Origin: Gymnothorax reevesii
Lineage: Eukaryota > Chordata > Actinopteri > Anguilliformes > Muraenidae
Direction of reading: 5' to 3'
DNA: 64,000 nt
Assembly: GCA_029721435.1 (NCBI GenBank)
Contig: CM056574.1
Location: 76,241,501 to 76,305,500 of the forward strand
The notes beneath the pieces are model-generated. The model made no database searches. It had not been told where the DNA came from and worked only from the letters and a program-made list of their open reading frames with translations. This document shows, piece by piece, positions 3,004 to 63,374 of this stretch (the stretch's first letter is position 1; every line of letters begins with the position of its first letter). Made by a program: the position numbers and the translations under genes.

Positions 3004-3007
3004 ATTA

Positions 3008-5548: not shown

Positions 5549-6636
5549 TGTTGGGATTTACAAAATGAACCAAGTGCGACAACCAGTAGAATACAAAAAG
5601 GAGGCTTTATTTCTGAAGGGGGCAACCCCCCACAGAGCTGGCAACAGTACAATGCCCGCAATCCAAAATCAAAGTCCAATGGGCGTAATCCAGAATTAAG
5701 GCAAAAAGAGGTCGATAAACAAGAATGTGGTACAATACAGGGTATATGCAAAGCTCGTAGTCAGGCGGTCCAGTCAGAAAGATAAATCACTTAGAATCAA
5801 GGCGTAAACAAACGTGGCACAGGAAGCTAGGAACAACGATCTGACAAGAAAGTGAACCAAACAGACATCTTAAATACACATCCGCGAGAACACATGATCA
5901 GGGAGAACAGGTGCAATCAATGGTAACAATAATCAGGGAGGGACACATGAGGAATAAACTAATTACATGAATTTGGCTGAAGCTAAAACACAGACAGGGA
6001 TCACAAGACAAACCTATGAACAGAACAGCTCCGGTCAAGGAGTACTAAAGTGCATAGTAAAAAGAAAGGAAAGCGCAAAGTAAATGTGGAAATCCACAGA
6101 AAATAGCAGCAGAGATAATGAGGGATAGGCAAGGAGGCGGAGACTAGAATTAGGCGACTGCTGAGAGATCATTAGTCAATTAGTAAGTGCAGCTATACAA
6201 TCCCAAGTGTTTGTTAGTGAGTCCAAATATACAAGGTTAGTGTGGGTTAGTAATTAGCAAAAACAATAAACTGTTAGTATGTGTTAGTAAGACAGTAAAA
6301 GAGAGAGGAAGGAAGAACACGAGATAATGAAAGATTGAAACCCAAAAACCAATAAATCACCTGAATGAGTTGCATGCAAGACAAGGGACCGTGAGCAAAT
6401 GACAAGACAGGGGACACAAAGTGCAAAGCATGGCAAAGAAAACATGGCATGAAAAATAATAAAACAAGGAAATCTAAAATACCAAAAACACAATACATAA
6501 TCCTAAGAATGGTCAGACAAAGGCAGTGGTCACTAAACACAAGAATCAATAATCATGGCAAGACCAGGCAACTTAAACTAGGCTAGGGATCATGGCATGG
6601 CAGAACTACCAAAACCAAAAGAGCAGAATCACAACA
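5549..6636 (-). repeat. 3' LTR of the Sushi-like element
   Basis: About 1088 bp with TG...CA ends. It corresponds along its length to the LTR at 10711-12049 apart from small differences and one 177-bp insertion in that copy. It contains runs of a TACTAAC-like heptad (minus strand) also seen in the solo LTRs at 15521 and 19315, which helps to recognise the family. Confidence 0.9.
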
Positions 6637-11201: not shown

Positions 11202-11240
<39 letters not shown>

Positions 11241-12049
11241 CTTAATTACAAATCCGGGAGAACACATGATCAGGGAGAACAGGTGCAATTAATGGTATCA
11301 ATAATCAGGGAGGGACACATGAGGAATAAACTAATTACATGAATTTGGCTGTAGCCAAAACGCAGACAGGGATCACAAGACAAACTTATGAACAGAACAG
11401 CTCCGGTCAAGGAGTACTAGTGCATAGTAAAAAGAAAGGAAAGCGCAAAGTAAATGTGGAAATCCACAGAAAATAGCAGCAGAGATAATTAGGGATAGGC
11501 AAGGAGGCGGAGACTAGAATTGGGCGACTACTGAGAGATCATTAGTCAATTAGTAAGTGCAGCTATACAATCCCGGGTGTTTGTTAGTAAATTAGTCCAA
11601 ATATACAAGGTTAGTTTGGGTTAGTAATTAGCAAAAACAATTAACTGTTAGTATGTGTTAGTAAGACAGTAAAAGAGAGGGGAAGGAAGAACACCAGATA
11701 ATGAAAGAAGATTGAAACCCAGAAACCAATAAATCACCTGAATGAGTTGTATGCAAGACAAGGGACCGTGAGCAAAGATACACACATGTCAAGACAGGGG
11801 AGACAAAGTGCTAAGCATGGCAAAGAAAACATGGCATGATAACTAATAAAATAAAACATGAAAAATAATAAAACAAGGAAATCTAAAATGCCAAAAACAG
11901 AATAAATAATCCTAAGAATGGTCAGACAAAGGCAGTGGTCACTAAACACAAGAATCAATAATCATGGCAAGGCCAGGCACTGAACTTAAACTAGGCTAGG
12001 GATCATGGCATAGCAGAACTACCAAAACCAAAAGAGCAGAATCACAACA
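10711..12049 (-). repeat. 5' LTR of the Sushi-like element
   Basis: 1339 bp with TG...CA ends, collinear with 5549-6636 except for an inserted SINE/LINE-tail sequence at about 11064-11240. CAAGG follows at 12050-12054. Confidence 0.9.
11064..11240 (+). mobile_element. SINE or LINE-tail insertion with (ATT)n end inside the Sushi 5' LTR
   Basis: Present in this LTR and absent from its partner at the matching point (about 5875), so it arrived after integration. It has the look of a common fish retroposon tail, with GTAAAGCG and AAAAGCGCTATATAAA segments, and ends in an ATT microsatellite (11203-11240). No clear target duplication was found and the family is not named. Confidence 0.6.
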
Positions 12050-19314: not shown

Positions 19315-20563
19315 TGTTAGGACCCTTGCTTTTCCATGTTTAAGTTTCGTGCCTGGCTATGCCATGTTTATTGATTTCTGTGTTTTAGTGACCTCTGCGT
19401 ATGTCTGACTATTCTTAGGATTGTGTTTTGGTAATTTAGATTTCTTGTTTTATTATTTCTCATATTCAGATTATTTAGTTATCATGGCATGTTTACATTC
19501 TCTTGTCTTGTTTATTTCTGCCATGCCATGCTTTGCACTACATCTACCCCGTCTTGTCTTGTGTAGGTCTTTGCTCACGGTTTAGTCTTGCGTGCCACTC
19601 CTTCGGGTGATTTACTGGTTTCTGGGATTTCAATCTTCCTTCATATCTCGTGTTCTTCCTTCCTTCCTCCTTTCGCTATCCACTAACCGTACTAACAGTT
19701 TATTGTTTTCGATAATTTACTAACACAGATTAACATTGTATATTTCTACTAACTGACTAACATGCACTCCGGATTGTATAGCTGCACATACTAATAGACT
19801 AACGATTTCTCAGCATTCACCCAATCTGTATCTCCGCCCTCCTTGCCTATCACTAATTATCTCTACTGCAGTTTCCACGTATATCTCAGGCTTTCCCTTT
19901 TCTTTAGACTGTACACTTTAGTACTCCTCCGGGGCTGTTGTTTGTTCATAGGAATGTCTTGTGATCCCTGTCTGCGTTTTGGCAGTTGCCAAATTCATGT
20001 TATTAGATTATTCCTCATGTGTCAATCCTGATTATTGTTTCGTTGATCACACCTGTTCTCCCCTGTCATTTGTTCACCCCGAATGTGTATATAAGGTGTC
20101 TTCACATTCAGTTCCATGTCAGATCGTAACTTCCTTGTTTCTTGTGCTAAGCTTGTTTCCGCCTTGACTCATTGTAATTATCTTTCTGACTGGATTGCCC
20201 GACTCCTGATTCTTGGTTTGCCTTTTTTTGGATATTTTTGCATCTGTGTTTTTGACCCTTTTTCTGCCCGACTTTGATTTTGTGGATTGTTGCCCTGGTT
20301 TCGATTCGGACTGTCGTCTGGCTTATGAGTTTGCTTCTCCCTCAAACCAACGCCTGTGTACCGAATCGGTCTTGCCTGACTACGATTTTTGTGATTGGTG
20401 CCCTGGTAACGAACTCTGTTCTGTCTCATTGGATTTGGAGCTTTGGATTACGGACTCTGTACTGTTGCCTTTCTCCCTGCGGGGGTTACCCCCCTTATTC
20501 AATAAAGCACCTATTTTTTGCAATCCCTTGTCCTCGCATTTGGTTCCAGATCGATACTTCACA
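19315..20563 (+). repeat. Solo LTR of the Sushi-like family
   Basis: 1249 bp, starting TGTTAGGACC and ending TTCACA, with 5-bp duplications ACTTG at 19310-19314 and 20564-20568. It aligns along its length with the reverse complement of the Sushi LTR at 5549-6636, including the CATTCTTAGGAT block, TACTAAC heptads and the 3' end with GGGGGTTACCCCCC followed by AATAAAGC. The open frames inside it are chance. Confidence 0.88.
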
Positions 20564-25627: not shown

Positions 25628-26048
25628 TAGAGCAGGATTCTGAGAGGGATTTGCAAGATATGGAAACACCACAGGGTATAACAGTCAGCAGTAAAAGGAA
25701 GGTTCAGGACAGCGAAAAAAATGGGGATAAGCAGAAAGAAAATAGCAGCCAAAGTGTTGAAAGTTGAAAATGAAGATGTGGGTGAAGAGAAAATTTTACA
25801 TAATATATCTAACAAAGAGCTAAGTAGTACTAAAGCCAAGAAAGTGCTCGAAGAGTTTTCAGACGACAATGAATGTGATTTGTCACCGTCACAAGAAAAT
25901 GAATTGACTGTTTATTCTCTTGAAAAAATAAAAAAGTTTCTTTTGCAAACTAAAGGGCAAAGGGCTGTAAAGACTGAACAGTTTTTTCCAGATTTGAGAG
26001 GCATTATCAGGTCAGTGACTGAACTGAGGAAAGACAAGGACTCTTTTT
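25628..26048 (+). pseudogene. Tx1-like L1 LINE, ORF1 fragment
   Basis: The plus strand encodes the Lys/Glu-rich middle of an L1/Tx1-type ORF1 protein: SLEKIKKFLLQTKGQRAVK followed by FFPDLRGIIRSV, which is typical of fish Tx1-like elements. The first part is in a shifted frame (stops around 25720-25745). ORF1 is interrupted by a Harbinger insertion at 26049 and its last codons appear after 38855. The 5' end is truncated at 25628 inside an LTR. Confidence 0.75.
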
Positions 26049-26679
26049 GGGGTCTATTCTCCCATGCGCTTAAGTCGAAAAAAGCGCGTAGCTACGCGCT
26101 TTTCAGCCTACGCGCATTCTCCCCTCGACTTAAGTCTGTGCATTACGCGCCTTGAAGGCAGTTACGCGCTTGGGGCGGAGCAAGGCCAAAATCGGGGCGT
26201 TTCCGGGCGTTTCTCATGCAAATAACACTTACGCGTATTCTCCCCCTGGCTTACGTGCTTTTTCTATTAAGCGCTTTTGAGGGCTGTATTAAGGTCAAGC
26301 GCCACCATTAGGCGAAATTGAATATTGCGTTTGATTTCGGTTATAGGCCGAATTTTAACATTACTTTTATTTCATTTAACATGGTAAAGGTTGAGACATT
26401 TAATATTCGATTGTTCTTCCTTATTTCTAAACTACATTTCTCAAAGCCATGATAATTTATCAAACGAAATCATCACATGATATTCTGCATCAGCCTCTTC
26501 TCCAATCAGTTAAATTACAAACGCAAAACAATTAATTAATACGAGTATACATAAGACCATCATTCTACCATGCTCTCAAAATCTAAAGCCAAAATGCCAG
26601 TCCTGCATTTGCTTGCACTCTTGCATGATTGGGAAAGAGTAAGAGGAGCGCGCTGAGCTCGAAGACGAACACGCATATA

Positions 26680-27240
26680 TCGGCTTCGTTTTGGCATCCT
26701 GGGACAAACAAACATCGAGTGCATCCAGCGCTTTCGCCTGGACCGTGCATGAGGCAATCATCTATCTTTGCCGACTTCTGGATGAACAGCTATCCAGCCG
26801 CTGCAATTATCCACAAAACATACCCGTGGTCATCAACGTCAGAACTGCGCTGTCGCTCCTGGCATCTGGGTCGTTTCAGAGAGTGGCTGGTGATGTCATA
26901 CACATATCACAGGCGTCTGTGGCAAGGTGTGTCTGACGCAGTTCGTTGGCGCTTCAAGTTCTTCTCCATGCACTTCCACTGCAGAAAGACTGGATGCCAT
27001 CCCCTCCTCCTGTACAGTGAAATGCACAGGGGATGATGGTTGCCCACCACCTGTTGCGTGTACACTTCTCCGGTGTGCAGAGAACCTGGCTTTTACAGCG
27101 GCCCGCAGATCTATCCATTTATGCTTTAAATCGGGGATACTGCGCTTACATCTCCCCTCCAAAGCCACATCCAGAATGATTCGCAGCTTAATTCCTCGGA
27201 TCAGCCTTCATTGCTCGCTTGCCATACAACACCAACATCT
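26680..27240 (+). pseudogene. HARBI1-type transposase remnant, copy 1
   Basis: The plus strand keeps the N-terminal helix-turn-helix region of Harbinger nucleases: PVVINVRTALSLLASGSFQR followed by VAGDVIHISQASVARCV (26816-26932). The DDE nuclease region that should follow was not found in a readable frame; either it is deleted or decayed beyond recognition. Copy 2 shows the same segment at about 40450-40545. Upstream frames are broken by stops. Confidence 0.7.
26896..27240 (-). pseudogene. Myb/SANT-like Harbinger DNA-binding protein remnant, copy 1
   Basis: The minus strand encodes a segment typical of the second Harbinger gene (NAIF1/MSANTD-like): IPDLKHKWIDLRAAVKARF then SAHRRSVHATGGGQ, followed by a negatively charged tail. 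It overlaps the 3' end of the HARBI1-type remnant in convergent orientation. In active Harbingers this protein brings the nuclease to the ends. The N-terminal tryptophan helices are decayed. Confidence 0.7.
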
Positions 27241-27244
27241 GTGA

Positions 27245-28586
27245 AATTTGGTTTTCGGCTTTGGGTCGACGTCGCCATCATTGTCTTCCATGTTCTGTTT
27301 ACAAATGCGACTGCCCTATATGTTCGTGATAATCTAAAAAGTTGTGATATTCTCACGAGTGAGGGAATTGGTTTTCTAATTGAGGATATTGGTATTAACT
27401 AACTCGAGTCCAAGTATTTTTTTACCATTGGTAATACTGTGTAATTTAATGTGTGAATAAAGATATTATTAAATAGGCTACTCTAGATTGAGCCGTACCC
27501 TGGCAAATACCAAAGCACTATTCATTTGTTAATCAATTTTAGCCTTTAAAGAATAGCCGACATGGGAAGAATCGTTATCAGTAAATGGGATAATTGATTA
27601 TAATAAAGTATTAGGCACAAGTTCAAGTGAATGTGTCGCTCAAATCAAATAGGATGATAGGCTATGGATATGGAATTCCGTCATTACTGAGGCGGTTTCG
27701 GGGCGGGGAGATGACCGCGTGCAGGGTAGGAATCCTTGTTAAAGCGTTTCCATGTCCTTTAGTTGCAAACCTGACATCGTAGTAGTTTTCAAGTGCGCAA
27801 TTTCTAAATGAGATCATATAAACTGTCTTTGATTGTCTTTGCGTGACAAGAATGTTCCCTTTGTCTTCTTCCCTGTCTTCCACGGAACAAACAGGCTGGT
27901 GTAGGAGGGGCACATCTTCAATGATCTGATTGCGCTGATTGAGAAGCGCTAAATTCTTTATTTATTATTTCATTATCGCGGCAATTTGTTTGTTTGCATA
28001 GCTTTAATGCCATGGTGGCTAGAGTAAGAAATAACAAGTGTTTGTCACTAACATATCCCCCGCCGCCGCAATTTTATGTGTCCTTATGGACGGAGCCCAA
28101 TGCTATATCCCCCGCTTCGCGCTAATCACGCGGCGGGGGATAAAAAAAGATGTCTGAATTACGTCTTGTAATTGGTACTGACATACATAGGCCTACTATT
28201 ACAGCCGCATATAAAACCTTGTATCTTCACAATGACAAACTTCACAGGAAAATAAAAAATTAATATAACATAATAATAATAATAAAATATAAATGGATAA
28301 ATAGTTTTAAATAAAAAATGTTTAATTTTGCATGTAAGAATAGTGGACATACGAGTTTTCGTTTCTTATAAGTTTGGAGATACAAGGTTTTATCAGCAGG
28401 CCGACGATATTCAAAGTTAAAGTCTGGTTTGCGTTTTCCATGGACCACAAATGCATTTTCATGGTTAATCAGAAAATCCTTTTTCCATGTTTTCCTGATA
28501 GCCATAATAAATGAGCTTTGTACAGAGTCTGCCTCTCTTTTGGATCAGTCACACCTCTTTCATATGGCCGCCTACATTCTGAAGTT
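27245..28586. other. Non-coding 3' part of Harbinger copy 1
   Basis: Collinear with 40857-42630 of copy 2 (minus its solo LTR), so it belongs to the transposon. It includes a perfect 10-bp stem at 28106-28115 and 28133-28142 (TATCCCCCGC and complement), with the same arm also present at about 28053. No gene was seen. Confidence 0.7.
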
Positions 28587-32772: not shown

Positions 32773-33930
32773 CTTGCATTAACCTCTGCTGGTTCAGGCT
32801 GCGTAGGCGCTGCCTCCCCCCAGCATATGGTCTGTTTTTGTGTTTGTGCTGTGTCCCGACGTTTAATTTAGTCGGTCGAGCTGACTTCGTTTGCTGGCTG
32901 GCGGGTTGCGTGAGCGTTTCCCGGTGTCCAGCGGATAATTATTAGCGGTAGCGCTTGCATAGCTACACCTTCAGGTGAGTTTGCATTAGCCTCTGTTGGG
33001 ACAGGCTGCATGCGTGCTGCTTCCCCCCAGCATATGGTTTGTTTATATGTTTGTGCTGCGCCCCGACGTTTAATTTAGTCGGTCGAGCTGACTTTGTTTG
33101 CTGGCTGGCGGGTTGCGTGAGCGTTTCCTGGTGTCCGGCGTGGATAATTATTAGCGGTAGCGCTTGCATAGCTACACCTGCAGGTGAGCTTGCATTAACC
33201 TCTGCTGGTTCAGGCTGCGTAGGCGCTGCCTCCCCCCAGCATATGGTCTGTTTTTGTGTTTGTGCTGTGTCCCGATGTTTAATTTAGTCGGTCAAGCTGA
33301 CTTTGTTTGCTGGCTGGCGGGTTGTGTGAGCGTTTCCCGGTGTCCAGCGTGAATAATTATTAGCAGTAACGCTTGCATAGCTACACCTGCTGGTGAGTTT
33401 GCATTAGCCTCTGTTGGGACAGGCTGCATGCGTGCTGCTTCCCCCCAGCATATGGTTTGTTTATATGTTTGTGCTGCGCCCCGACGTTTAATTTCGTCGG
33501 TCGAGCTGACTTTGTTTGCTGGCTGGCGGGTTGCGTGAGCGTTTCCTGGTGTCCAGCGTGGATAATTATTAGCGGTAGCGCTTGCATAGCTACACCTGCA
33601 GGTGAGCTTGCATTAACCTCTGCTGGTTCAGGCTGCGTGGGCGCTGCCTCCCCCCAGCATATGGTCTGTTTTTGTGTTTGTGCTGTGTCCCAACGTTTAA
33701 TTTAGTCGGTCAAGCTGACTTTGTTTGCTGGCTGGCGGGATGCGTAAGCGTTTCCCGGTGTCCAGCGTGAGTAATTATTAGCGGTAACGCTTGCATAGCT
33801 ACACCTGCAGGTGAGTTTGAATTAAACTCTGTTGGTAGAGGCTGCATGCGCGCTGCTTCCCCCCAGCATATGGTTTGTGTTTTGCTTCGTGCTGTGCCCC
33901 GATTTGGGTTTGTTACTGAGCCCCTGCTGG

Positions 33931-38854: not shown

Positions 38855-39722
38855 GTGATCAGGAAATATATCGACTTCGGAAGATTGAGACAAAAGTTAA
38901 GGCCCAGTTAACTGAAGATGTGTAAAGCCAAAGGATTTCTTAGCAAACTGAATGCTCGTTTTTTATCTTAGTGCCTTTTTTTACTCTCTTTGCCATGGGA
39001 AGTTTGAAAATAGGCTCATTACATATCAATGGAGCAAGGAGTGATATAAAAAGGGCTTTGCTTTTTAAACTGATGGAATTAAAAAATTTAGATGTATTGT
39101 TTGTTGAAGAAACTCACAGTGATAGGGAGAATGAGCTTGATTGGAAGCAGGAGTGGCCGGAGGTAGTCACTCTCAGCCATAAATCGTATAAAAGTGGTGG
39201 GGTGGCTATCCTTTTTTCAAAGAGCTTCATTCCTCATTCTTTAGAGGTGGAAGAGGTCATTAATGGTCACATTCTAAAAATTAAGGTTCTGTTCGAACAG
39301 GTAAAAATATGTTTTGTGAATGTTTATGTTCCTGTTTTAAGTACTGAAAGAATGATTTTTTAAAAATATTTTGAGTGATGTAATTCAGAAGTGCTCAGAT
39401 GATTTTTTTGTTTCTGGGAGGTGATTTTAACTGCACAGAAAATGCCAAATTAGACAGGAATCACCTGGAGCCTCATCAGGCCTCATCTGTGAGGCTTAGG
39501 AAACTCATTGAAACATGTGAGCTAAAGGATGTGTTGAGAGGCTTGAACGAATATGACAGACAGTACACCTGGAGTCACTCCAGAGAGAATTTGCTCTCTC
39601 TTGCCAGACTTGATCGATTTTATTGCTTTAAGCATCATTTTAGCATTTTTGAACAGTGTCAAATAACTCCTGTTGGGCAGTCTGATCATTGTATGGTCCA
39701 GTGCTTCTGTTATATTCACAAT
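38855..39722 (+). pseudogene. Tx1-like L1 LINE: ORF1 end and ORF2 endonuclease
   Basis: The first 70 bp finish ORF1 (a YRLRKIETKVKAQLTED helix, stop near 38925), restoring the frame broken at 26048. ORF2 starts at ATG 38995 with an APE endonuclease: SLHINGARSDIKRALLF, VEETHSD in place of the usual QETH, SGGVAILFS, then after a frameshift near 39360-39400 GGDFNCTEN, YTWSHSRENLLSLARLDRFY and the histidine box VGQSDHCMV (about 39675). ORF2 is interrupted by Harbinger copy 2 at 39723. Confidence 0.85.
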
Positions 39723-40207
39723 GGGGTCTATTCACCCATGCGCGTAAGTCGAAAAAAACGCGCAGCTACGCCTATTCTCCCCTCGACTTAAGTCTGTGCA
39801 TTACGCGGCCCGAAGGCAGTCACGCGCTTGGGGCGGAGCAAGGCCAAAATCGGGGCGTTTCCGGGCGTTTCGCATGAAAATAACACTTACGCATATTCTC
39901 CCCCTGGCTTACGCGCTTTTGAGGGCTGTATTAAGGTCAAGCGCCAACATAAGGCGAAATGGAAAATTGCGTTTGATGTCGGTTCTCGGCCGAATTTTAA
40001 CATTAATTTTATTTTATTTAACATGGTAAAGGTTGAGACATTTAATATTCGATTGTTCTTCCTTATTTCTAAACTACATTTCTCAAAGCCATAATAATTT
40101 GTCAAACGAAATCGTCACATGATATTACGCATCAGCCAATTCTCCAATCAGTTCAATTACAAGAGCAAAACAATTAATACGAGTATACATAAGACCATCA
40201 TTCTACC

Positions 40208-40856
40208 ATGCCCTCAAAATCTAAAACCGAAATGCCAGTCCTGCCTTTGCTTGCACTTTTGCGTGATTGGGAAAGAGTAAGAGGAGCGCACCGAGCTCGA
40301 AGACGAACACGCATATGTTCGCTTGGACATCCTGGGACTAACAAAAATCTAGGGCATCCAGCGCTTTCGTCTGGACCGTGCATGAGGCAATCGTCTATCT
40401 TTGTCGACTTCTGGATGAACAGCTATCCAGCCGCAGCAATTATCCACAAAACATACCCGTGGTCATCAACGTCAGAACTGCGCTGTCGCTCCTGGCATCT
40501 GGGTCGTTCCAGAGAGTGGCTGGTGATGTCATACACATCACAGGCGTCCGTGTCAAGGTGTCTGACACAGTTCTTCTCCATGCACTTACACTGCAGAAAG
40601 AGTGGATGCCATCCCCTCCTCCTGTGCAGTGAAATGCACAGGGGATGATGGTTGCGAACCACCTGTTGCGTGTACACTTCTCCGGTGTGCAGAGAGCCTG
40701 GCTTTTACAGCGCCCCGTAGATCTCTCCATTTATGCTTTAAATCAGGGATACTGCGCTTACATCTACCCATTGAAGCCACATCCAGAACAATTCGCAGCT
40801 TAATTCCTGGGATCAGCCTTCAGTGCTTGCTTACCATACAACACCAACATCTGTGA
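40208..40856. pseudogene. Harbinger copy 2 gene remnants (HARBI1-type plus strand, Myb-like minus strand)
   Basis: Plus strand: PVVINVRTALSLLASGSFQR followed by VAGDVIH (about 40456-40545), the transposase helix-turn-helix part, then frame loss. Minus strand (about 40780-40590): RCKRSIPDLKHKWRDLRGAV and SAHRRSVHATGG, the Myb/SANT-like partner. Same truncated state as in copy 1, so both copies probably descend from one already non-autonomous master. Confidence 0.7.
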
Positions 40857-41453
40857 AATTTGGTTTTCAGCTTCGGCTCAACGTCACAGTCTTCATGTAC
40901 TTTTAACAAATGCGACTGCCCTATATGTTCGTGATAATTTAAAAAGTTGTGATATTCTCAAGAGTGAGGAGATTGATTTTCTAATTGAGGATATCTGTAT
41001 TATCTAACCCGTGTCTTTGTAATTTTTTTTACCATTGATAATACTGTGTATTTTCATGTGTGAATAAAAATATTATTAAACAGGCTACTCTAAATGAAGC
41101 CCTACTCTGGCCAATACCAAAGCACTACCGATTTGTTAATCAATTTTAGCCTACAAAGAATAGCCGACATGGAAAGAATCATTATCAGTAAATGGGAATG
41201 GGATAATTGATTATGATAAAGTATTAGGCACAAGTTCAAGTGAATGTGTCGCTCAAATCAAATAGGATATGATAGGCTATGGATATGGAATTGTGTGATT
41301 ACTGAGGCGGTTTCGGGGCGGGGAGATGATCGCGTGCGGGGTAAGAATCCTTGTTGTGTTTCTATGTCCTTTAGTTGCAAACCTGACATCGGAGTAGTTT
41401 GATCTTTTTGTGTGACTAGAATGTTCCCTTTGTCTTCTTCCCTGTCTTCCACG

Positions 41454-41951
41454 TGTAATGTGAATATAGGCCACTGGATGGCAGTATTTACCTTTTTTTT
41501 ATTCAGCTCAAACTGGAGCTATGTTTAGACATGTCCTGGACATGTCTGGGGCAAGTCCCCGAAAAGTAAAAAAAAAGAGGTCTAAATGTGGGTGGGGTCT
41601 GCAAAAGAGTATATAAGGAGAAGAATTGAGACAGTAAAGTAGTAGGAGAAATTGCAAGAAGAAGGATATGTGTGACCAGACCTGTCATTTCTGTTCAAGA
41701 CCTGTGAAGTTTCTTTTGTGGATTTTTGCCTGTGTTTGAGCCTTTTTCCTCACCCAGCACATCACCAGGAAACCCACTAAAGGGACTGTAAATATTTCTG
41801 TTTTTTTTTATTCAATCTTGGTCATTTAGTTGTAGGTTATTGTTAGTTATTGTCTTTGTTCATTAAATGTGTTTGAGTTTTTAAAACTGTGTCTGTCATC
41901 CCTTGCTGTTGCTGTTGTCATGTAATGTAATAACAAATTGGGGCCATAACA
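41454..41951 (+). repeat. Solo LTR of the Gmr1-like family
   Basis: 498 bp, TGTAATGTGA...GGGGCCATAACA, flanked by 4-bp CACG at 41450-41453 and 41952-41955. The empty site is visible in Harbinger copy 1 (about 27880). It is close to the LTRs of the two full copies at 47-63 kb, with small differences. Confidence 0.92.
41471..41618 (+). promoter_or_regulatory. LTR promoter module, solo LTR
   Basis: CTCF-core-like CCACTGGATGGCAG (41471-41484; one base off the core), three RRRCWWGYYY decamers at 41527-41536, 41538-41547 and 41549-41558, a GGGTGGGG box, and TATATAAGG at 41610-41618. Confidence 0.7.
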
Positions 41952-42743
41952 CACGGAACAAACAGGCTGGTGTAGGAGGGGCACATTTTCAATGATCTGA
42001 TTGCTCTGGTTGAGAAACGCTAAATTCTTTATTATTTCATTATCGCGGCAATTTGTTTGTTTGCATAGCTTTAATAAGAAATAACAAGTGTTTGCCAAAA
42101 ACATGGCAATATCCCCCGCCGCCTCAATTTTATGTGTCGGATGGATGGAGCCCAATGCTTTAACCAACGCTAATTGCGCGGCGGGGAATAAAAAAAGAGA
42201 TGACTGAATTACTTCTTGTAATTGGTACAGGCCTACTATTACAGCGGCATATAAAACCTTGTATCTTCAAAATGACAAACTTCCCAGGAAAATGAAAAAT
42301 AAATATAAAATTTAATAGTAATAAAATAATATAAATGGATAAATATAGTTTAAAATAAAAAATGTTTAATTTTGCATGTAAGAATAGTGGACATAGGAGT
42401 TTTCGTTTCTTATCAGTTTGGAGATAAAACCTCGTATCAGCAGGCCGACGTTATTCAAATTTAAAGTCTGGTTTGCGTTTTCCATGGACCACAACTGCAT
42501 TTTCATAGTTAATCAGAAAATCCTTTTTCCATGTTTTCCTGATAGCCATAATCAATGAGCTTTGAACAGAGTCTGCATCTCTTTTGCATTAGTCACACCT
42601 CTTTCATAAGGCCGCCTACATTCTGAAGTTAAGCGCTGTGGGCGTGATCGAAGCGCGTAGGGGAGAATGCGCGTAACTCAAAAGCGCTTAACTCGAAGCG
42701 CGTAAAAAAGGACTTACGCGCTAATGGGAGAATAGACCCCAAT

Positions 42744-47217: not shown

Positions 47218-47672
47218 TGTAATGTGAATATAGGCCACTAGATGGCAGTATTTACCTTTTTTTTGTTAAGCTCAGACTGGTGTCATGTTTAGACATGTCC
47301 TGGACATGTCTGGGGCAAGTCTCAGAAAATTAAGAAAAAGAGGTCTAAATGTGGGTGGGGTCTGAAAAGAGTATATAAGGAAAAGAATTGAGACAGTAAA
47401 GTAGTAGGAGAAATTGCAAGATGACCAGACCTGCGACGTTTCTTTTGTGGATTTCTTTGCCTGTGTTTGAGCATTTTCATTATCCAGGACATCACCAAGC
47501 CACCCCACAAAAAGGGACTGTAAATATTTCTTTTTTTTTTCCTATTCAATCTTGGTCAGTTTAGTTAGTTGTTGTGTTTAATTAAATGTGTTTAAGTTTT
47601 TAAAACTGTGTCTGTCATCCCTTGCTGTTGCTGTTGTGTTGTAGATTGTAATAACAAATTGGGGCCATAACA
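47218..47672 (+). repeat. 5' LTR, Gmr1-like copy 1
   Basis: 455 bp. Collinear with 52713-53189 but lacks about 22 bp (near 47420) that the other LTRs have. Few other differences, which suggests a fairly recent insertion. Confidence 0.92.
47235..47380 (+). promoter_or_regulatory. LTR promoter module, copy 1 5' LTR
   Basis: CTCF-core match CCACTAGATGGCAG (47235-47248); p53-type decamers AGACATGTCC (47291-47300), GGACATGTCT (47302-47311) and GGGCAAGTCT (47313-47322), each separated by one base; GGGTGGGG; TATATAAGG at 47372-47380. Confidence 0.75.
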
Positions 47673-47789: not shown

Positions 47790-49571
47790 ATGGATGATTT
47801 CTAGGCATCACCAACCGTAGGGGTTTTGAAGTCTTTTAAAAAGACAGAACTGCTAGAAATTTGCAGACAGTTGGAGCTGACAGAGGTAAAACCAGCCATG
47901 CGAAAAGCAAGACTGGCTAGAGAGATAGTTGAATATTACATTGATGAAAATGTGTTTGCACCAGGAGATCTGGAACAGTTTCCAGTGGAAAATCCAAATA
48001 TAGAAATGGAACTTAAATTAAAAATGATAGAGATTGAAAGGGAAGAAAAAGAAAAACAAAGGCAGTTTGAGTTGGAAAAATTAGCAAGAGAAGAGAAAAA
48101 AGAAAGGGAGGAAAGAGAAAAAGAAAGGGGGAAAAAGAGGAACAAAGAGAATTTGAGAGGGAAGAAAAAGAAAAACAAAGAGAATTTGAGTTAGAAAAAT
48201 TTGCAAGACAGAGAGATTTTGAATTAGAGAAATTTGATAGAGAAGAAAGACTCCAAATGGAGCAACTAAAAATGAAAATTCAAACTGAAAATAAATTTCG
48301 GGCTAGCCAGGAGGTAAAACTGGTGCCTCCATTTTTGGAAAAGGATGTTGACAACTATTTCCAGTGTTTTGAAAAGGTAGCAAAGAGTTGCCAGTGGCCA
48401 AAGGAACACTGGCCTCTGATGTTGCAAACCGTCCTCAAGGGTAAAGCTCAACAAGCCTATTCGGCTTTGTCTGCAGATGATTCCTCTGATTATGAGGTTG
48501 TCAAAAAGGTTATTTTGAGAGCTTATGAGTTGGTTCCAGAGGCTTACCGACAGAAATTCAGAGGTCTGAAGAAATCTGAAAATCAGACTTATGTGGAATT
48601 TGCTAATGAGAAGAAGGTTTGCTTTGTGCGCTGGTGTACTTCTATGGAGGTCAAGGATGATTTCAACTCACTAAAAGAGATGGTGTTAGTTGAAGAATTC
48701 AAGAACTGTGTTAAAGATGATGTTAAGACCTACCTTAATGAGAAGCAAGCACTGAATTTGCAATCAGCTGCCAAATTTGCAGATGAATATTCTCACACAT
48801 AAGTCCAAATTTCAGTCTAGCAGTAATAATAGATGGTCCCAATTTCAGAAAAAGGGTTATGGTGATACCCAAGATTCCTCACCCAAAGACAAAGACAAAT
48901 CTGGTGATGGTGCTCAGAAATCCAGTAACAGGTCTGATCAAAGTGTGAAAGCTGACAGTGACAAAAGTGGTCTAGTTTGCAGTTATTGCAAGAAATCTGG
49001 TCATGTTAAAACTAACTGCTGGTTCCTAAAAGCTAAGAAAGAAAAAGAAAAGGACACCAAACCAAATGCCTTTGTGAAAACAAGGTTAGAAACCCCTGTA
49101 GTAGATAACCGATCTGCTAAATTACCTGCTTCTTGTGGGGCTAAAAAGCCTAATACAGCTGACTTTGTGAAGGAGGAATTTCTTCCATTTGTGTCAGAGG
49201 GATTTGTGGCTCTGAATGAGCATACTACTCCTGTCCCCATATACATCCTAAGGGATACCGGAGCTTCTCAGTCACTTTTGTTGATGGACTCCTTGGAGTT
49301 ACGTGATGAGACCGCTTCAGGGGATTTCATACTTGTACAAGGTATTGAAGGGAGGACTGTATCTGTACCCCTGCGCTCTATATTCTTGAAGTCAGATTTA
49401 GTTACAGGACAGGTAAAGGTGGGACTTATGTCAAGTCTACCTATAAAGGGTGTTTCTCTGTTGCTAGGCAATGACCTGGCTGGGGGCAAAGTAGTTCCCC
49501 CTGTACATCTTCACAGCCGAGCACTGAATATGGGGATGAGGACCCATCTCTGTATCCTTCTTGCCCAGTGA
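47790..49571 (+). pseudogene. Gag and protease of Gmr1-like copy 1
   Basis: The start by homology is ATG 47790, but codon 5 is TAG (TTG in copy 2). Order: a SAP/HeH-like N-terminal segment (FKKTELLEICRQLELTEVK), a Glu/Lys/Arg coiled coil with a frameshift near 48130, the capsid region (VPPFLEKDVDNYFQCFEKVA), a SCAN-like block (EAYRQKFRGLKKSENQTYVE to about 48780), a 1-bp indel at about 48795, a CCHC knuckle CSYCKKSGHVKTNC (about 48975-49020), then protease with LRDTGASQS (about 49250) and LLGNDLAGG (about 49465). A 4-bp loss near 49510 ends this frame at 49571. Confidence 0.88.
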
Positions 49572-50083: not shown

Positions 50084-52579
50084 CCTGGGCTTCGGAAAGA
50101 CGTTTCCAACTTTTGCAAAACCTGTCACACTTGTCAGGTAGTTGGAAAACACCAGTTAGACCCACCTGTAGCTCCATTGCAGCCTATCCCAGCATTTGGA
50201 GAGCCCTTCTCTAAGGTCATTGTTGATTGCGTTGGTCCATTACCCAAGACTAGATCTGGAAATCAGTACTTGTTGACAATCATGTGCGCATCTACCAGAT
50301 TCCCCGAAGCCATACCTCTACGTAACATCAAGGCAACTGCAATCTCGAAGGCTTTGATAAAGTTCTTCACGTTGTTTGGCCTTCCCAGGGAAATTCAGTC
50401 AGACCAGGGTAGCAATTTCACTTCAGGATTGTTTCAGCAGGTTGTGTATGAACTAGGTGCAAAGCAGATTCTTTCTAGTGCCTATCATCCAGAAAGTCAG
50501 GGTGCCTTAGAGCGGTTTCATTCCACTCTCAAGACAATAATGAGGACTTATTGTTATGACCATGAGAAAGACTGGGATGAAGGGGTTCATTTGCTGTTGT
50601 TTGCAGCTAGAGAAGCAGTGCAGGAGTCTACTGGATTCAGTCCATTTGAGCTAGTGTTTGGTCATGAAGTGAGAGGACCTTTGCTATTATTGAGTGAACA
50701 ATGGCAAGAGGAAGAGCCGCAAATCAGTCTGTTAGACTATGTTAGCAAGTTCAAGGAAAGATTGTGTGCAGCTTGTGACCTAGCCAAAGAGAACTTGAAA
50801 TCAAGTCAGGGAAAAATGAAAACTTGGTATGATCATAAGGCTAGAAGCCGTGAGTTTAAACCAGGAGACAAGGTCCTTGTGTTGTTTTCCTTGCAGTCCA
50901 ATCCATTGCAGGCTAGATTTCATGGTCCTTATGAAATTCTGACAAAACTCAATGATCTCAATTACATTGTGAAGACTCCAGATAGGAGAAAACCAAAACA
51001 ACTGTGTCACATTAACATGCTGAAGCCTTATCATGACAGAAATGCTAGGGTTGCAGCTGTCACTTCAGATTCTCCAATGGTCGAAATGTGTGAAGATGAG
51101 GGGGAGTTTCAAGATGATGAACCAAGAATTAAAGCTGAAGTTCTTTCATGTGAATTGTCAAACACTGAAGTGTTGCAAAATCTTGATGTAAAACTCCAGC
51201 ACTTAGAACCCTCACAGAGAGATCGGTTTGAAAGGTTGATCAAGAAATATGAGGATTTGTTTCCTGATGTTCCAAAGAGAGTTACTATAGCCTCTCATGA
51301 TGTAGATGTTGGTGATGCCAAACCAATAAAACAGCATCCATACCGGATGAATCCTGAAAAGAGAAAGATTGCTGAGAAAGAGGTTGAGTACATGTTAAAA
51401 CATGATATTATCAGACCCTCCAACTCCGATTGGAGTTCACCCTGTGTGCTAGTTCCAAAACCTGATGGAAGTACTAGATTCTGTACAGATCATTGCAAAG
51501 TCAATGCTGTAACTAGAACTGATGTGTTTCCAATACCTAGGATTGATGATTGTATTGATAGTGTAGGGCAAGCAAAGTTTCTGACCAAGATTGATTTATT
51601 GAAGGGTTATTGGTGTGTGCCTTTAACTGAGAGGGCCAAGAGCATCTCTGCTTTTGCCACACCATCTGGATTGTACCAGTATGAAGTCCTACCCTTTGGC
51701 ATGAAAAATGCCCCAGCCACGTTCCAAAGGATGATACAGTCTACAATCGCCGGATTGCCACACACGGGTGCGTACATCGATGACCTGATCGCATGGAGTG
51801 ACTCCTGGGAAGAACATCTAAAAGATGTAGAGACGTTGTTCCAGCGCCTGACCCAGGCTAACCTGACTGTTAACCTGAGCAAGAGTGACTTTGGTTGTGC
51901 TACTGTCACCTATCTTGGCTACGTCATAGGCCAGGGTAAGGTGGCACCCATAAATGCTAAAGTCCAAGCCATCATGGACTTTCCAGTTCCTGACAACAAA
52001 AAAGCTTTGCGCCGCTTCCTTGGAATGATCGGGTACTACCGCAAGTTCTGCAAGAACTTTGCTGAGATTGCTCTCAGTCTAACTAACCAAATGAAGAAAG
52101 GCGTAAAGTTCACCTGGGATGATGCATGCCAGAGAGCCTTCGATCGCCTGAAGTCTCTGCTGTGTCACTTCCCCGTGCTCAAATCTCCTGACTTCAACAA
52201 ACCGTTCTCCATCGCGGTCGATGCTAGCGACCAAGCTTGTGGATCTGTGCTCCTACAGAGAAGTGACTCTGATGACATTGAGCATCCCGTGGCATACTTC
52301 TCCAGGAAGTTCAATCGCCACCAAAGGAACTATTCCACAATAGAGAAGGAACTGTTGGCTCTGGTCCTTTCTTTTCAACACTTTGAGGTTTATTTTTGTA
52401 CAGGACAAAAGCCAATGATTGTGTACACTGACCACAATCCGTTAATGTTTTTGAGTAAGATGAAAAACAAGAATCGGAGATTGTTGAATTGGAGTTTGAT
52501 TTTACAGGAGTTTGACTTGGAAATTAAGCATGTGAAGGGTACAGACAATGTAATTGCTGATTGCTTATCCCGTGTTTGA
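50084..52579 (+). CDS. Integrase-RT-RNase H polyprotein of Gmr1-like copy 1
   Basis: Open for about 830 codons from the TGA to 52579 (first ATG 50177, not a natural start). Order: CHTC of the zinc domain (about 50125); integrase core with Asp in VDCVGPLPK (about 50225), Asp in SDQGSNF (about 50400), Glu in SQGALERF (about 50510); integrase tail with GPYEIL (about 50925) and LCHINMLKPY; linker; RT with LVPKPDGSTRFCTD (about 51450), FLTKIDLLKGYW (about 51580), LPFGMKNAPATFQ (about 51690) and YIDD at 51773-51784; RNase H with VDASDQACGSVL (about 52218), YSTIEKELLAL (about 52330) and TDHNPL (about 52430); ends IADCLSRV. All catalytic residues visible are intact, but a conserved RT position reads HCKVN instead of YRKVN. 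Confidence 0.93.
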   Translation, partial: PGLRKDVSNFCKTCHTCQVVGKHQLDPPVAPLQPIPAFGEPFSKVIVDCVGPLPKTRSGNQYLLTIMCASTRFPEAIPLRNIKATAISKALIKFFTLFGLPREIQSDQGSNFTSGLFQQVVYELGAKQILSSAYHPESQGALERFHSTLKTIMRTYCYDHEKDWDEGVHLLLFAAREAVQESTGFSPFELVFGHEVRGPLLLLSEQWQEEEPQISLLDYVSKFKERLCAACDLAKENLKSSQGKMKTWYDHKARSREFKPGDKVLVLFSLQSNPLQARFHGPYEILTKLNDLNYIVKTPDRRKPKQLCHINMLKPYHDRNARVAAVTSDSPMVEMCEDEGEFQDDEPRIKAEVLSCELSNTEVLQNLDVKLQHLEPSQRDRFERLIKKYEDLFPDVPKRVTIASHDVDVGDAKPIKQHPYRMNPEKRKIAEKEVEYMLKHDIIRPSNSDWSSPCVLVPKPDGSTRFCTDHCKVNAVTRTDVFPIPRIDDCIDSVGQAKFLTKIDLLKGYWCVPLTERAKSISAFATPSGLYQYEVLPFGMKNAPATFQRMIQSTIAGLPHTGAYIDDLIAWSDSWEEHLKDVETLFQRLTQANLTVNLSKSDFGCATVTYLGYVIGQGKVAPINAKVQAIMDFPVPDNKKALRRFLGMIGYYRKFCKNFAEIALSLTNQMKKGVKFTWDDACQRAFDRLKSLLCHFPVLKSPDFNKPFSIAVDASDQACGSVLLQRSDSDDIEHPVAYFSRKFNRHQRNYSTIEKELLALVLSFQHFEVYFCTGQKPMIVYTDHNPLMFLSKMKNKNRRLLNWSLILQEFDLEIKHVKGTDNVIADCLSRV

Positions 52580-52712: not shown

Positions 52713-53189
52713 TGTAATGTGAATATAGGCCACTAGATGGCAGTATTTATCTTTTTTTGTTAAGCTCAGACTGGAGTCATGTTTAGACATGTCCTGGACA
52801 TGTCTGGGGCAAGTCTCAGAAAATTTAAAAAAAGAGGTCTAAATGTGGGTGGGGTCTGCAAAAGAGTATATAAGGAAAAGAATTGAGACAGTAAAGTAGT
52901 AGGAGAAATTGCAAGAAGATGACCAGACCTGCCATTCTGTTCAAGACCTGTGACGTTTCTTTTGTGGATTTCTTTGCCTGTGTTTGAGCATTTTCATTAT
53001 CCAGGACATCACCAAGCCACCCCACAAAAAGGGACTGTAAATATTTCTTTTTTTTTTCCTATTCAATCTTGGTCAGTTTAGTTAGTTGTTGTGTTTAATT
53101 AAATGTGTTTAAGTTTTTAAAACTGTGTCTGTCATCCCTTGCTGTTGCTGTTGTGTTGTAGATTGTAATAACAAATTGGGGCCATAACA
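52713..53189 (+). repeat. 3' LTR, Gmr1-like copy 1
   Basis: 477 bp, TGTAATGTGA...GGGGCCATAACA; followed by CATC target duplication. Confidence 0.92.
52730..52875 (+). promoter_or_regulatory. LTR promoter module, copy 1 3' LTR
   Basis: CCACTAGATGGCAG (52730-52743); decamers at 52785-52794, 52796-52805 and 52807-52816; TATATAAGG at 52867-52875. Confidence 0.75.
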
Positions 53190-57924: not shown

Positions 57925-58414
57925 TGTAATGTGAATATAGGCCACTAGATGGCAGTATTTACCTTTTTTTTGTTAAGCTCAGACTGGAGTCATGTTTAGA
58001 CATGTCCTGGACATGTCTGGGGCAAGTCTCAGAAAATAAAAAAAAGAGGTCTAAATGTGGGTGGGGTCTGCAAAAGAGTACATAAGGAAAAGAATTGAGA
58101 CAGTAAAGTAGTAGGAGAAATTGAAAGAAGATGACCAGACCTGCCATTCTGTTCAGGACCTGTGACGTTTCTTTTGTGGATTTCTTTGCCTGTGTTTGAG
58201 CATTTTCATCATCCAGGACATCACCAAGCCACCCCCGCCACGAAAAGGGATTGTGAATATTTATGTTTTGTACATAATTCAATCTTGGTCTTTAGGTTAG
58301 TTAGTTGTTATTGTCTTTGGTAATTAAATGTGTTTAAGTTTTTGGAACTGTGTCTGTCATCCCTTGCTGTTGCTGTTGTGTTGTAGATTGTAATAACAAA
58401 TTGGGGCCATAACA
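57925..58414 (+). repeat. 5' LTR, Gmr1-like copy 2
   Basis: 490 bp, TGTAATGTGA...GGGGCCATAACA. Shares the CCACGAAAAGGGATTGTGAA variant with its own 3' LTR and not with copy 1, so the two copies belong to slightly different LTR subtypes. Confidence 0.92.
57942..58087 (+). promoter_or_regulatory. LTR promoter module, copy 2 5' LTR
   Basis: CCACTAGATGGCAG (57942-57955); decamers at 57998-58007, 58009-58018 and 58020-58029. The TATA box is mutated here to TACATAAGG (58079-58087). Confidence 0.75.
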
Positions 58415-59898: not shown

Positions 59899-62229
59899 AT
59901 GGTTTCTCCGTTTGAGGACTTATCAGATACTTTTATCAGTTCTCTATTCAGCCAGCCGGATGGGTCTGGTGATTCTGATGTGTCTGGAGACTTGTCTCTG
60001 TCCAGAAAGCGGTTGATTGAGGAGCAAACTAATGATCCTGAAATTTGTGTACTAAAGAGGAGAGCCCTTCCTGATAAAGAAATAGACGCAGTTCCAGTTG
60101 GGTATTATCTCAAGGATGGTCTGTTAATGCGGAAGTGGCGCCCTCCTGATATCCCTGCCAATGCAGATTGGGCAGTGGTCAGGCAAATTGTCGTTCCGAA
60201 GGTCTACAGGAATGAGATCTTAACAATGGCTCATAGTTTACCTTTAGGAGGTCATCTTGGTGTTAACAAGACTGTTGATAAGATCATGAAACACTTCTTT
60301 TGGCCTGGGCTTCGGAAAGACGTTTCCAACTTTTGCAAAACCTGTCACACTTGTCAGGTAGTTGGAAAACACCAGTTAGACCCACCTGTAGCTCCATTGC
60401 AGCCTATCCCAGCATTTGGAGAGCCCTTCTCTAAGGTCATTTTTGATTGCGTTGGTCCATTACCCAAGACTAGATCTGGAAATCAGTACTTGTTGACAAT
60501 CATGTGTGCATCTATCAGATTCCCCGAAGCCATACCTCTACGTAACATCAAGGCAACTGCAATCTCGAAGGCTTTGATAAAGTTCTTCACGTTGTTTGGC
60601 CTTCCCAGGGAAATTCAGTCAGACCAGGGTAGCAATTTCACTTCAGGATTGTTTCAGCAGGTTGTGTATGAACTAGGTGCAAAGCAGATTCTTTCTAGTG
60701 CCTATCATCCAGAAAGTCAGGGTGCCTTAGAGCGGTTTCATTCCACTCTCAAGACAATGATGAGGACTTATTGTTATGACCATGAGAAAGACTGGGATGA
60801 AGGGGTTCATTTGCTGTTGTTTGCAGCTAGAGAAGCAGTGCAGAAGTCTACTGGATTCAGTCCATTTGAGCTAGTGTTTGGCCATGAAGTGAGAGGACCT
60901 TTGCTATTATTGAGTGAACAATGGCAAGAGGAAGAGCCGTACATCAGTCTGTTAGACTATGTCAGCAAGTTCAAGGAAAGATTGCGTGCAGCTTGTGACC
61001 TAGCCAAAGAGAACTTGAAATCAAGTCAGGGAAAAATGAAAACTTGGTATGATCATAAAGCTAGAAGCCGTGAGTTTAAACCAGGAGACAAGGTCCTTGT
61101 GTTGTTTCCCTTGCATTCCAATCCTTTGCAGGCTAGATTTCATGGTCCTTATGAAATTCTGACAAAACTCAATGATCTCAATTACATTGTGAAGACTCCA
61201 GATAGGAGAAAACCAAAACAATTGTGTCATATTAACATGCTAAAGCCTTATCATGACAGAAATGCTAGGGTTGCAGCTGTCACTTCAAATTCTCCAATGG
61301 TCGAAACGTGTGAAGATGAGGGGGAGTTTCAAGATGATGAACCAAGAATTAAAGCTGAAGTTCTTTCATGTAAATTGTCAAACACTGAAGTGTTGCAAAA
61401 TCTTGATGTAAAACTCCAGCACTTAGAACCCTCACAGAGAGATCAGCTTGAAAGGTTGATCAAGAAATATGAGGATTTGTTTCCTGATGTTCCAAAGAGA
61501 GTTACTATAGCCTCTCATGATGTAGATGTTGGTGATGCCAAACCAATAAAACAGCATCCATACCGGATGAATCCTGAAAAGAGAAAGATTGCTGAGAAAG
61601 AGGTTGAGTACATGTTAAAACGTGATATTATCAGACCCTCCAACTCCGATTGGAGTTCACCCTGTGTGCTAGTTCCAAAACCTGATGGAAGTACTAGATT
61701 CTGTACCGATTATCGCAAAGTCAATGCTGTAACTAGAACTGATGTGTTTCCAATACCTAGGATTGATGATTGTATTGATAGTGTAGGGCAAGCAAAGTTT
61801 CTGACCAAGATTGATTTATTGAAGGGTTATTGGTGTGTGACTTTAACTGAGAGGGCCAAGAGCATCTCTGCTTTTGCCACACCATCTGGATTGTACCAGT
61901 ATGAAGTCCTACCCTTTGGCATGAAAAATGCCCCAGCCACGTTCCAAAGGATGATACAGTCTACAATCGCCGGATTGCCACACACGGGTGCGTACATCGA
62001 TGACCTGATCACATGCAGTGACTCCTGGGAAGAACATCTGAAAGAAGTAGAGACATTGTTCCAGCGCCTGACCCAGGCTAACCTGACTGTTAACCTGAAC
62101 AAGAGTGACTTTGGTTGTGCTACTGTCACCTATCTTGGCTACGTCATAGGCCAGGGTAAGGTGGCACCCATAAATGCTAAAGTCCAAGCCATCATTGACT
62201 TTCCAGTTCCTGACAACAAAAAAGCTTAG
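59899..62229 (+). CDS. Integrase-RT polyprotein of Gmr1-like copy 2
   Basis: One open frame of 776 codons from the linker, in the same register as the upstream gag-protease past its TAG. Full H2C2 motif (H and H in AHSLPLGGHLG, C and C in CKTCHTC; about 60230-60360). Integrase Asp in FDCVGPLPK (about 60445), Asp in SDQGSNF (about 60620), Glu in SQGALERF (about 60735); integrase tail; RT with DYRKVNAVTRTD (about 61710), LPFGMKNAPATFQ and YIDD at 61993-62004. It ends at a TAG (62227-62229; TTG in copy 1) at the start of the connection to RNase H. Confidence 0.93.
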   Translation: MVSPFEDLSDTFISSLFSQPDGSGDSDVSGDLSLSRKRLIEEQTNDPEICVLKRRALPDKEIDAVPVGYYLKDGLLMRKWRPPDIPANADWAVVRQIVVPKVYRNEILTMAHSLPLGGHLGVNKTVDKIMKHFFWPGLRKDVSNFCKTCHTCQVVGKHQLDPPVAPLQPIPAFGEPFSKVIFDCVGPLPKTRSGNQYLLTIMCASIRFPEAIPLRNIKATAISKALIKFFTLFGLPREIQSDQGSNFTSGLFQQVVYELGAKQILSSAYHPESQGALERFHSTLKTMMRTYCYDHEKDWDEGVHLLLFAAREAVQKSTGFSPFELVFGHEVRGPLLLLSEQWQEEEPYISLLDYVSKFKERLRAACDLAKENLKSSQGKMKTWYDHKARSREFKPGDKVLVLFPLHSNPLQARFHGPYEILTKLNDLNYIVKTPDRRKPKQLCHINMLKPYHDRNARVAAVTSNSPMVETCEDEGEFQDDEPRIKAEVLSCKLSNTEVLQNLDVKLQHLEPSQRDQLERLIKKYEDLFPDVPKRVTIASHDVDVGDAKPIKQHPYRMNPEKRKIAEKEVEYMLKRDIIRPSNSDWSSPCVLVPKPDGSTRFCTDYRKVNAVTRTDVFPIPRIDDCIDSVGQAKFLTKIDLLKGYWCVTLTERAKSISAFATPSGLYQYEVLPFGMKNAPATFQRMIQSTIAGLPHTGAYIDDLITCSDSWEEHLKEVETLFQRLTQANLTVNLNKSDFGCATVTYLGYVIGQGKVAPINAKVQAIIDFPVPDNKKA

Positions 62230-62890: not shown

Positions 62891-63374
62891 TGTAATGTGA
62901 ATATAGGCCACTAGATGGCAGTATTTACCTTTTTTTTGTTAAGCTCAGACTGGAGTCATGTTTAGACATGTCCTGGACATGTCTGGGGCAAGTCTCAGAA
63001 AATTAAAAAAAAGAGGTCTAAATGTGGGTGGGGTCTGCAAAAGAGTATATAAGGAAAAGAATTGAGACAGTAAAGTAGTAGGAGAAATTGAAAGAAGATG
63101 ACCAGACCTGCCATTCTGTTCAGGACCTGTGACGTTTCTTTTGTGGATTTCTTTGCCTGTGTTTGAGCATTTTAATCATCCAGGACATCACCAAGCCACC
63201 CCCCCACGAAAAGGGATTGTGAATATTTATGTTTTGTACATAATTCAATCTTGGTCTTTAGGTTAGTCAGTTGTTATTGTCTTTGGTAATTAAATGTGTT
63301 GAAGTTTTTGGAACTGTGTCTGTCATCCCTTGCTGTTGTGTTGTAGATTGTAATAAGAAATTGGGGTCATAACA
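62891..63374 (+). repeat. 3' LTR, Gmr1-like copy 2
   Basis: 484 bp; differs from its 5' partner by few bases and small indels near the end. Followed by ATAA. Confidence 0.92.
62908..63054 (+). promoter_or_regulatory. LTR promoter module, copy 2 3' LTR
   Basis: CCACTAGATGGCAG (62908-62921); decamers at 62964-62973, 62975-62984 and 62986-62995; TATATAAGG at 63046-63054. Confidence 0.75.

Follow-up and report, generated by a model that had tools for sequence, protein, structure and literature searches.

Mobile elements as carriers of p53 sites

Transposable elements that carry p53 sites are already known as a kind from primate LTRs (PMC4287438) and from zebrafish DNA transposons (PMC3485254). 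The primate endogenous retroviral LTRs LTR10, MER61 and MLT1H are reported to spread strong p53 sites that are occupied above non-repeat sites, and the same account describes p53 binding at human repeats as generally not linked to activation of adjacent genes (PMC4287438). In zebrafish, the element EnSpm-N6_DR is described as spreading two-decamer p53 sites, with p53-dependent modulation of adjacent genes (PMC3485254). A survey of the zebrafish assembly reports 3,033 perfect p53 motifs with spacers of 0-15, a density of 2.25 per Mb, with 47% of them in repeats (hAT and others), and states that zebrafish p53 requires a CWWG core (PMC5007497). Double-tetramer binding by p53 is reported to be efficient only at spacers of 0 or 1 bp, and best at 0 (PMC5291249). 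CATG cores are described as the high-affinity form and spacer-containing sites as being of lower affinity (PMC3744428), and spacer sites are given as rare in human p53 peaks, at 1.1% to 5.1% with half-sites included (PMC7735755).

Here we analyzed a window of 64,000 nucleotides from Gymnothorax reevesii (contig CM056574.1), in which the LTRs of one retrotransposon family carry three p53-type decamers in a row. The family resembles the primate LTRs in being a repeat that spreads candidate strong p53 sites, but binding to those human elements has been demonstrated by ChIP, whereas the present family is of Gmr1 type, places its three decamers next to the TATA box of the element itself and is known from sequence. 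With EnSpm-N6_DR it shares the spreading of two-decamer sites by a non-mammalian mobile element; that element, however, is a DNA transposon, non-autonomous and present in 210 copies (PMC3485254), while ours is an LTR retrotransposon whose double decamer has 12,532 places and lies in the element's own promoter. Among the papers listed from open-licence PubMed Central, none dealt with p53 sites in elements of the Gypsy/Gmr1 kind. As far as searched, novelty lies in the element class, in the copy number, in a promoter layout with three sites and in a turnover that keeps the consensus, all described below.

Three abutting decamers in five LTRs

The window contains three insertions of the retrotransposon, a solo LTR and two full-length elements (A and B), which together provide five LTRs (Table 1). 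The solo LTR differs from the others by 8.6-10.8%. Elements of the Gmr1 clade encode integrase before reverse transcriptase and have a SCAN-like gag. Both elements show the integrase-first order, which in element B is split over two ORFs, and element A also has a SCAN gag, an arrangement that fits Gmr1-type Ty3/Gypsy elements. The 462-aa ORF 5' of pol in element B gave no family match, and the SCAN match is known in element A only. Named relatives of the pol product among the 120 matches listed include echinoderms, hemichordates, a shrimp and fish. A pol search of the viral contig collection returned no relative, and pattern scans of the viral contig and genome contig collections gave 0 matches each.

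Table 1. Features of the retrotransposon family in the window (positions within the window)
Feature	Position	Strand	Remark
Solo LTR	41454..41951	+	Target duplication CACG on both sides
Three p53-type decamers, solo LTR	41527..41558	+	Consensus match
Element A 5' LTR	47218..47672	+	Target duplication CATC
CTCF-core-like motif CCACTAGATGGCAG in U3	47235..47248; also 52730-52743, 57942-57955, 62908-62921	+	Motif match
Decamer 1 AGACATGTCC, element A 5' LTR	47291..47300	+	Consensus match
Decamer 2 GGACATGTCT, element A 5' LTR	47302..47311	+	Consensus match
Decamer 3 GGGCAAGTCT, element A 5' LTR	47313..47322	+	Consensus match
TATA box TATATAA, element A 5' LTR	47372..47378	+	49 bp 3' of decamer 3
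SCAN-domain gag fragment, element A	48257..48802	+	PF02023, E 2.4e-11
pol ORF, element A	50177..52579	+	Order: integrase core, integrase C-terminal, reverse transcriptase, RNase H
Element A 3' LTR	52713..53189	+	7/454 sites unlike its 5' LTR
Half-site AGTCATGTTT and adjoining decamers 1-3, element A 3' LTR	52775..52816	+	Half-site imperfect
Element B 5' LTR	57925..58414	+	Target duplication ATAA; mutated TATA box (58079)
Three decamers, element B 5' LTR	57998..58029	+	Consensus match
pol ORF, element B	59899..62229	+	Zinc-binding, integrase core, integrase C-terminal, reverse transcriptase
Element B 3' LTR	62891..63374	+	6/483 sites unlike element B 5' LTR
Three decamers, element B 3' LTR	62964..62995	+	Consensus match

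The original prediction placed three p53-type decamers with one-base spacers, 49-51 bp before the TATA box, in each of the five LTRs, and the sequence bears this out. The pattern RRRCWWGYYY-N-RRRCWWGYYY-N-RRRCWWGYYY occurs with 0 mismatches and 1-bp spacers in 5/5 LTRs, starting at 41527, 47291, 52785, 57998 and 62964 and ending 51, 49, 50, 49 and 50 bp, respectively, before the TATA position, where the 5' LTR of element B reads TACATAA. In the solo LTR, decamer 3 reads GGGCAAGTCC and fits the consensus, again as proposed. These five arrays represent three insertions only. A p53 response element is defined by two or more RRRCWWGYYY decamers at a spacer of 0-13, and each array has three such decamers with spacers of 1. 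In the young subfamily, and in the 5' LTR of element A, decamers 1 and 2 are exact inverted copies of each other over 10 bp, with a single base at the center.

It is the arrangement that constitutes the signal, since single decamers occur in the window at the chance rate (26 found against 22.4 expected). In 100 shuffles of the window, triple matches averaged 0.04 even with 3 mismatches allowed, and 20,000 dinucleotide shuffles of one LTR yielded 7 perfect pairs at spacers of 0-3 and 0 triples. No further perfect decamer pair with a spacer of 0-3 was found anywhere in the window. A fourth half-site, AGTCATGTTT, with 1 mismatch, adjoins decamer 1 at spacer 0 in 3/5 window LTRs; it was rejected as a member of the array, its variability being equal to that of the neighboring U3. 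A perfect full site free of spacers, which is how p53 sites usually occur in vivo although the definition does not demand it, is absent from the five LTRs, the only 0-spacer pair being this imperfect and not specially conserved one. Across the five LTRs, 1/32 decamer columns are variable, compared with 60/404 in the rest of the LTR (one-sided p 0.044) and 13/129 in the rest of U3 (one-sided p 0.19), and conservation within the window alone is weak evidence.

Copy number and recent activity

In the host assembly of 2.17 Gb (421 contigs), the 21-bp double decamer AGACATGTCC-N-GGACATGTCT occurs at 12,532 places, against 0 for the reversed control, and 4/4 places inspected lie inside an LTR of the family. 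This one site alone thus reaches 5.8 places per Mb, whereas the zebrafish density cited above covers all spacers of 0-15 (PMC5007497). Allowing up to 3 mismatches, a 25-mer that lies between the decamers and the TATA box was found at 19,618 or more places. For a second 25-mer, situated in R and characteristic of older subfamilies, the figure is 17,197 or more, and the controls gave 0 each; the two sets overlap, and these repeat counts are lower bounds.

Copies were then sampled by these LTR parts outside the decamers. Among the first 100 copies listed for the U3 25-mer, which is intact in all of them and all of which lie on contig C1, 90 have a perfect triple, 5 a pair and 5 one decamer, and 70 match the young subfamily's double decamer exactly. 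Of 100 places listed for the R 25-mer, 11 were already in the set, 80 were read and 9 were not read; the 80 comprise 50 with a triple, 17 with a pair, 10 with one decamer and 3 with none, these last also being without a recognizable array. Four copies chosen by their decamers (L001-L004) were left out of the counts, as were two LTRs in L114, whose place came from the decamer-chosen list, and the two rows L106 and L108, from ten stretches read for partner LTRs, were added. The family may accordingly be regarded, by its many dispersed copies with the site, as one that spreads candidate p53 sites: beyond the double-decamer places genome-wide, 140/180 sampled copies carry three perfect decamers. 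The suggestion that this retrotransposon may have spread p53-responsive promoters is borne out as far as the sites go, which number in the thousands of genome places, while the responsiveness of the promoters is putative.

Among the first 90 copies, 36 neighboring same-strand LTR pairs were found, and 10 of them are substitution-free (gaps ignored), which indicates that the family has been active recently; at least 3 of the 36 (L012/L013, L053/L054 and L085/L086) are probably separate insertions, by distance or divergence. The LTRs L067 and L068 lie 23 kb apart and have 18 identical bases of 5' flank, and they probably reflect a segmental duplication rather than two insertions.

Decamer turnover within the consensus

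A perfect triple is present in 146/183 rows (5 from the window), in the form of 25 distinct 32-mers when spacers are counted, 13 of which occur in two or more rows. Examples are GGGCATGTTT c GGGCATGTCT g AAACAAGTCC, GGACATGTTC t GGGCATGTCT g GGGCAAGTCC and GGGCATGTTT t AGGCATGTCT g GGACAAGTCC. Subfamilies differ at many decamer positions, mostly within the p53 consensus. A tree of 174 rows was constructed from the LTR columns, with the decamers excluded, and the decamer changes were assigned to it by parsimony; we call a change transmitted when it is common to two or more rows and private when it is found in one. This tree omits three rows with no recognizable U3 array (L160, L195 and L196) and nine rows below 72% identity in 5' U3.

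Transmitted decamer changes keep the consensus in 43 cases and break it in 3, compared with 33 and 25 for private changes (Fisher p 1.8e-5 by event). Events are non-independent, their number being inflated by LTR pairs, gene conversion and errors in the tree, and for this reason the comparison by distinct change is safer: 17 keep and 3 break among transmitted changes against 19 and 18 among private ones (p 0.020). Private changes of solo LTRs are partly older than the insertion, which works against the contrast. Smaller sets gave the following counts (keep/break): 23/1 transmitted against 4/8 private in one set of events, 20/1 against 6/6 in another (p 0.0047; by distinct change 0.027), and 21/1 against 7/6 in a 101-row set (p 0.0059; by distinct change 0.073). 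Five rows below 85% were dropped from the 20/1 and 21/1 sets, and L068 was dropped from the 101-row set onward, being taken as a segmental copy because its 5' flank is the same as that of L067.

The three transmitted breaks comprise one in L040/L041, an element with substitution-free LTRs in which decamer 2 is broken in both, and two in L174/L175, one of these also being present in L092. As L175 is without one decamer unit, we could only assume that it carries one of these breaks; recounting that break as private gives p 3.6e-6. In 6/183 rows, representing five insertions by position, GGGAAAGTC replaces GGGCAAGTC and the third site is damaged; either decamer 3 was lost repeatedly or a lineage without decamer 3 spread. 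The tree counts most of these cases as separate private breaks. Treating them as one transmitted lineage changes the p value of the contrast to 1.3e-4, and treating each case as transmitted changes it to 0.007.

Transitions make up 44/46 transmitted and 37/58 private decamer changes, against 363/838 and 477/1037 in the rest of the LTR and 40/62 of the transmitted changes in R alone (p 1e-4 vs decamers). Private changes keep the consensus in 57% of cases, compared with the 42% predicted by a neutral mixture in which 64% of changes are transitions (p 0.02), and the keeping may thus be partly mutational; set against 50%, the private rate of 33/58 is not in excess.

Per column, transmitted changes number 1.53 in the decamers, 1.24 in R and 2.49 in U5, so the constraint on the decamers shows in the kind of change and not clearly in the rate. 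The ten TATA columns, with 8 transmitted and 35 private changes, do show constraint in rate. Decay of the decamers faster than the flanking LTR had been named as evidence that would count against p53 control, and it is not seen: the decamers have 1.93 private changes per column, and the other parts of the LTR have 1.43 to 3.50. Three copies (L023, L140 and L175) are without one 11-bp decamer unit, showing that the array can contract.

p53-family genes of the host

Profile PF00870 gave 15 p53-family exon matches at five loci, on contigs C3, C4, C6, C13 and C14 (L115-L120). At the C14 locus, two of the matches have an internal stop, perhaps because an intron was read through or because of decay. 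The C14 exon in L119 is open over the part used, and p53 chains were all of the 60 best PDB matches listed for it; the other exons look p63/p73-like by eye. Most vertebrates have three p53-family loci. The host possesses the p53-family binding protein, with exons at five loci rather than the usual three.

A probable p53-family response element and its alternatives

We consider that the decamers probably represent a p53-family response element in the U3 promoter of a recently active Gmr1-type Ty3/Gypsy element, kept by selection in the copies that spread. We infer that p53, p63 or p73 tetramers would bind decamers 1 and 2, with their CATG cores and 1-bp spacer, and that decamer 3 would serve as an accessory half-site. 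Spaced about one helical turn apart and about 50 bp 5' of the TATA box, the decamers would increase the element's transcription in cells with an active p53 family, whether through DNA damage or in the germ line. Copies that lost the cores would spread less, so that the sites were kept while the decamer letters drifted within the consensus, and amplification of the family would have seeded the genome with more than 12,000 near-ideal p53 sites. We favor activation over repression because selection appears to have acted on the element. Our confidence in this explanation is slightly reduced by the GGGAAAGTC variant and by how often private changes keep the consensus. The original prediction that p53-family factors may switch the element on agrees with the decamers in the sampled copies and with transmitted changes lying mostly within the p53 consensus, both of which speak at the level of sequence.

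A further-reaching version is possible, although we hold it only tentatively: the p53 family might be the main activator of the element, with the triple site as a promoter core kept through many subfamilies, bursts tied to genotoxic stress or to germ-line p63/p73, and more than 12,000 sites that rewire or titrate the host p53 network. The five host loci may be part of this. Its network component is weakened by the human repeats, where binding is reported as generally unlinked to activation of adjacent genes.

The same binding could instead serve mainly the host, with p53 repressing the element and the sites merely inherited from a successful ancestor. Such a role has precedents, as p53 holds retrotransposons in check in the germ lines of zebrafish and flies. 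When p53 is lost, LINE ORF1 protein is reported to increase in zebrafish and retrotransposon RNA in Drosophila, and the p53 sites of a HERV-I LTR are described as repressive (PMC5031199). Copies without a repressor site should, however, spread better, yet the transmitted changes mostly avoid breaks, and we regard this explanation as improbable.

We think it similarly improbable that another factor uses the sequence and that the p53 fit is incidental. TALE/Iroquois proteins recognize ACATGT and SMADs recognize AGAC/GTCT, and a zinc-finger protein would be a further candidate. ACATGT does lie within decamers 1 and 2 of the young subfamily, but decamer 3 has CAAG and older subfamilies have GCATGT. 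Haplotypes such as those with GGGCATGTTT and AAACAAGTCC are without AGAC and GTCT in decamers 1 and 3, yet RRRCWWGYYY holds three times in four-fifths of the rows (146/183) regardless. Two other candidates were rejected: the spaced CNRG motif of TFCP2/grainyhead is incompatible with CATG, and the steroid-receptor palindrome has a 3-bp gap where the gap here is 0.

The array could also be a neutral relic, an 11-bp tandem repeat that fitted the consensus by chance in a founder and became common by descent alone. Its 11-bp periodicity and the loss of units in three copies are compatible with such an origin, as are the ordinary rates of change in the decamers and the window LTRs, in which the decamers are no more conserved than the rest of U3. 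Many letters were replaced by subfamilies while the consensus was nevertheless kept, and 17/20 distinct transmitted changes are keeping ones; under a neutral mixture, 17 or more has p 1e-6 to 1e-3 (transition fractions 0.43-0.80). This makes descent alone quite unlikely.

Conservation of a nucleic-acid structure, U3 being part of the 3' end of the genomic RNA, is very unlikely, for although the inverted repeat of decamers 1 and 2 is perfect over 10 bp in the young subfamily and the R/Y-keeping changes mostly retain G-U or Watson-Crick pairing (haplotypes read by eye), a 1-base loop requires an opened center, decamer 3 has no such partner yet shows the same kind of changes, and GAACATGTCT with AGACATGTCC, found in both LTRs of two elements, creates an A-C mismatch.

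If the p53-family response element is real, another class of mobile element would have captured p53 sites, and would have done so inside its own promoter, with selection on the spreading copies for keeping them. Whether a retrotransposon profits from p53 or is held down by it would then become a testable question, for which the genome offers many natural site variants in the form of 25 triple haplotypes, broken cores and lost units.

Other features of the LTR and the window

The U3 region also contains a motif resembling the CTCF core, for which the consensus is CCASYAGRKGGCAS. Four full matches to this core were found in the window against 0.01 expected, and the solo LTR has the motif at 41471-41484 with one mismatch. 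In the 5' LTR of element A it sits 42 bp 5' of the decamers at 47291. In the wider sample, base six alternates between A and G among subfamilies. A role as a second selected site is not favored by the transmitted changes (3 keep, 4 break), which are confined to three of the 14 positions. The retrotransposon family may spread candidate CTCF sites as well.

While integrase-first order (elements A and B) and a SCAN-like gag (element A) are traits shared with the Gmr1 clade, the p53 array is not shared by Gmr1-like elements in general. A second, different Gmr1-like element in the window has a SCAN gag at 1311-2084 (minus strand) and a presumed primer site near 3004 (minus strand), with 0 perfect decamers within 1.4 kb beyond that site; its LTR end and primer site resemble those of the decamer-bearing family. 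By contrast, the retroelement with an ORF at 6609-9590 (minus strand) has the ordinary domain order, with reverse transcriptase before integrase, and is flanked by repeats at 5867-6636 and 11239-12049 that are 90.9% alike and look like its LTRs. A long duplicated unit, 86-88% alike, is present at 26048-27788 / 39722-41400 and 27881-28586 / 41952-42630, and its right copy is interrupted where the solo LTR lies. A tandem array, in which the shifts measure about 208 bp, occupies 32773-33903.
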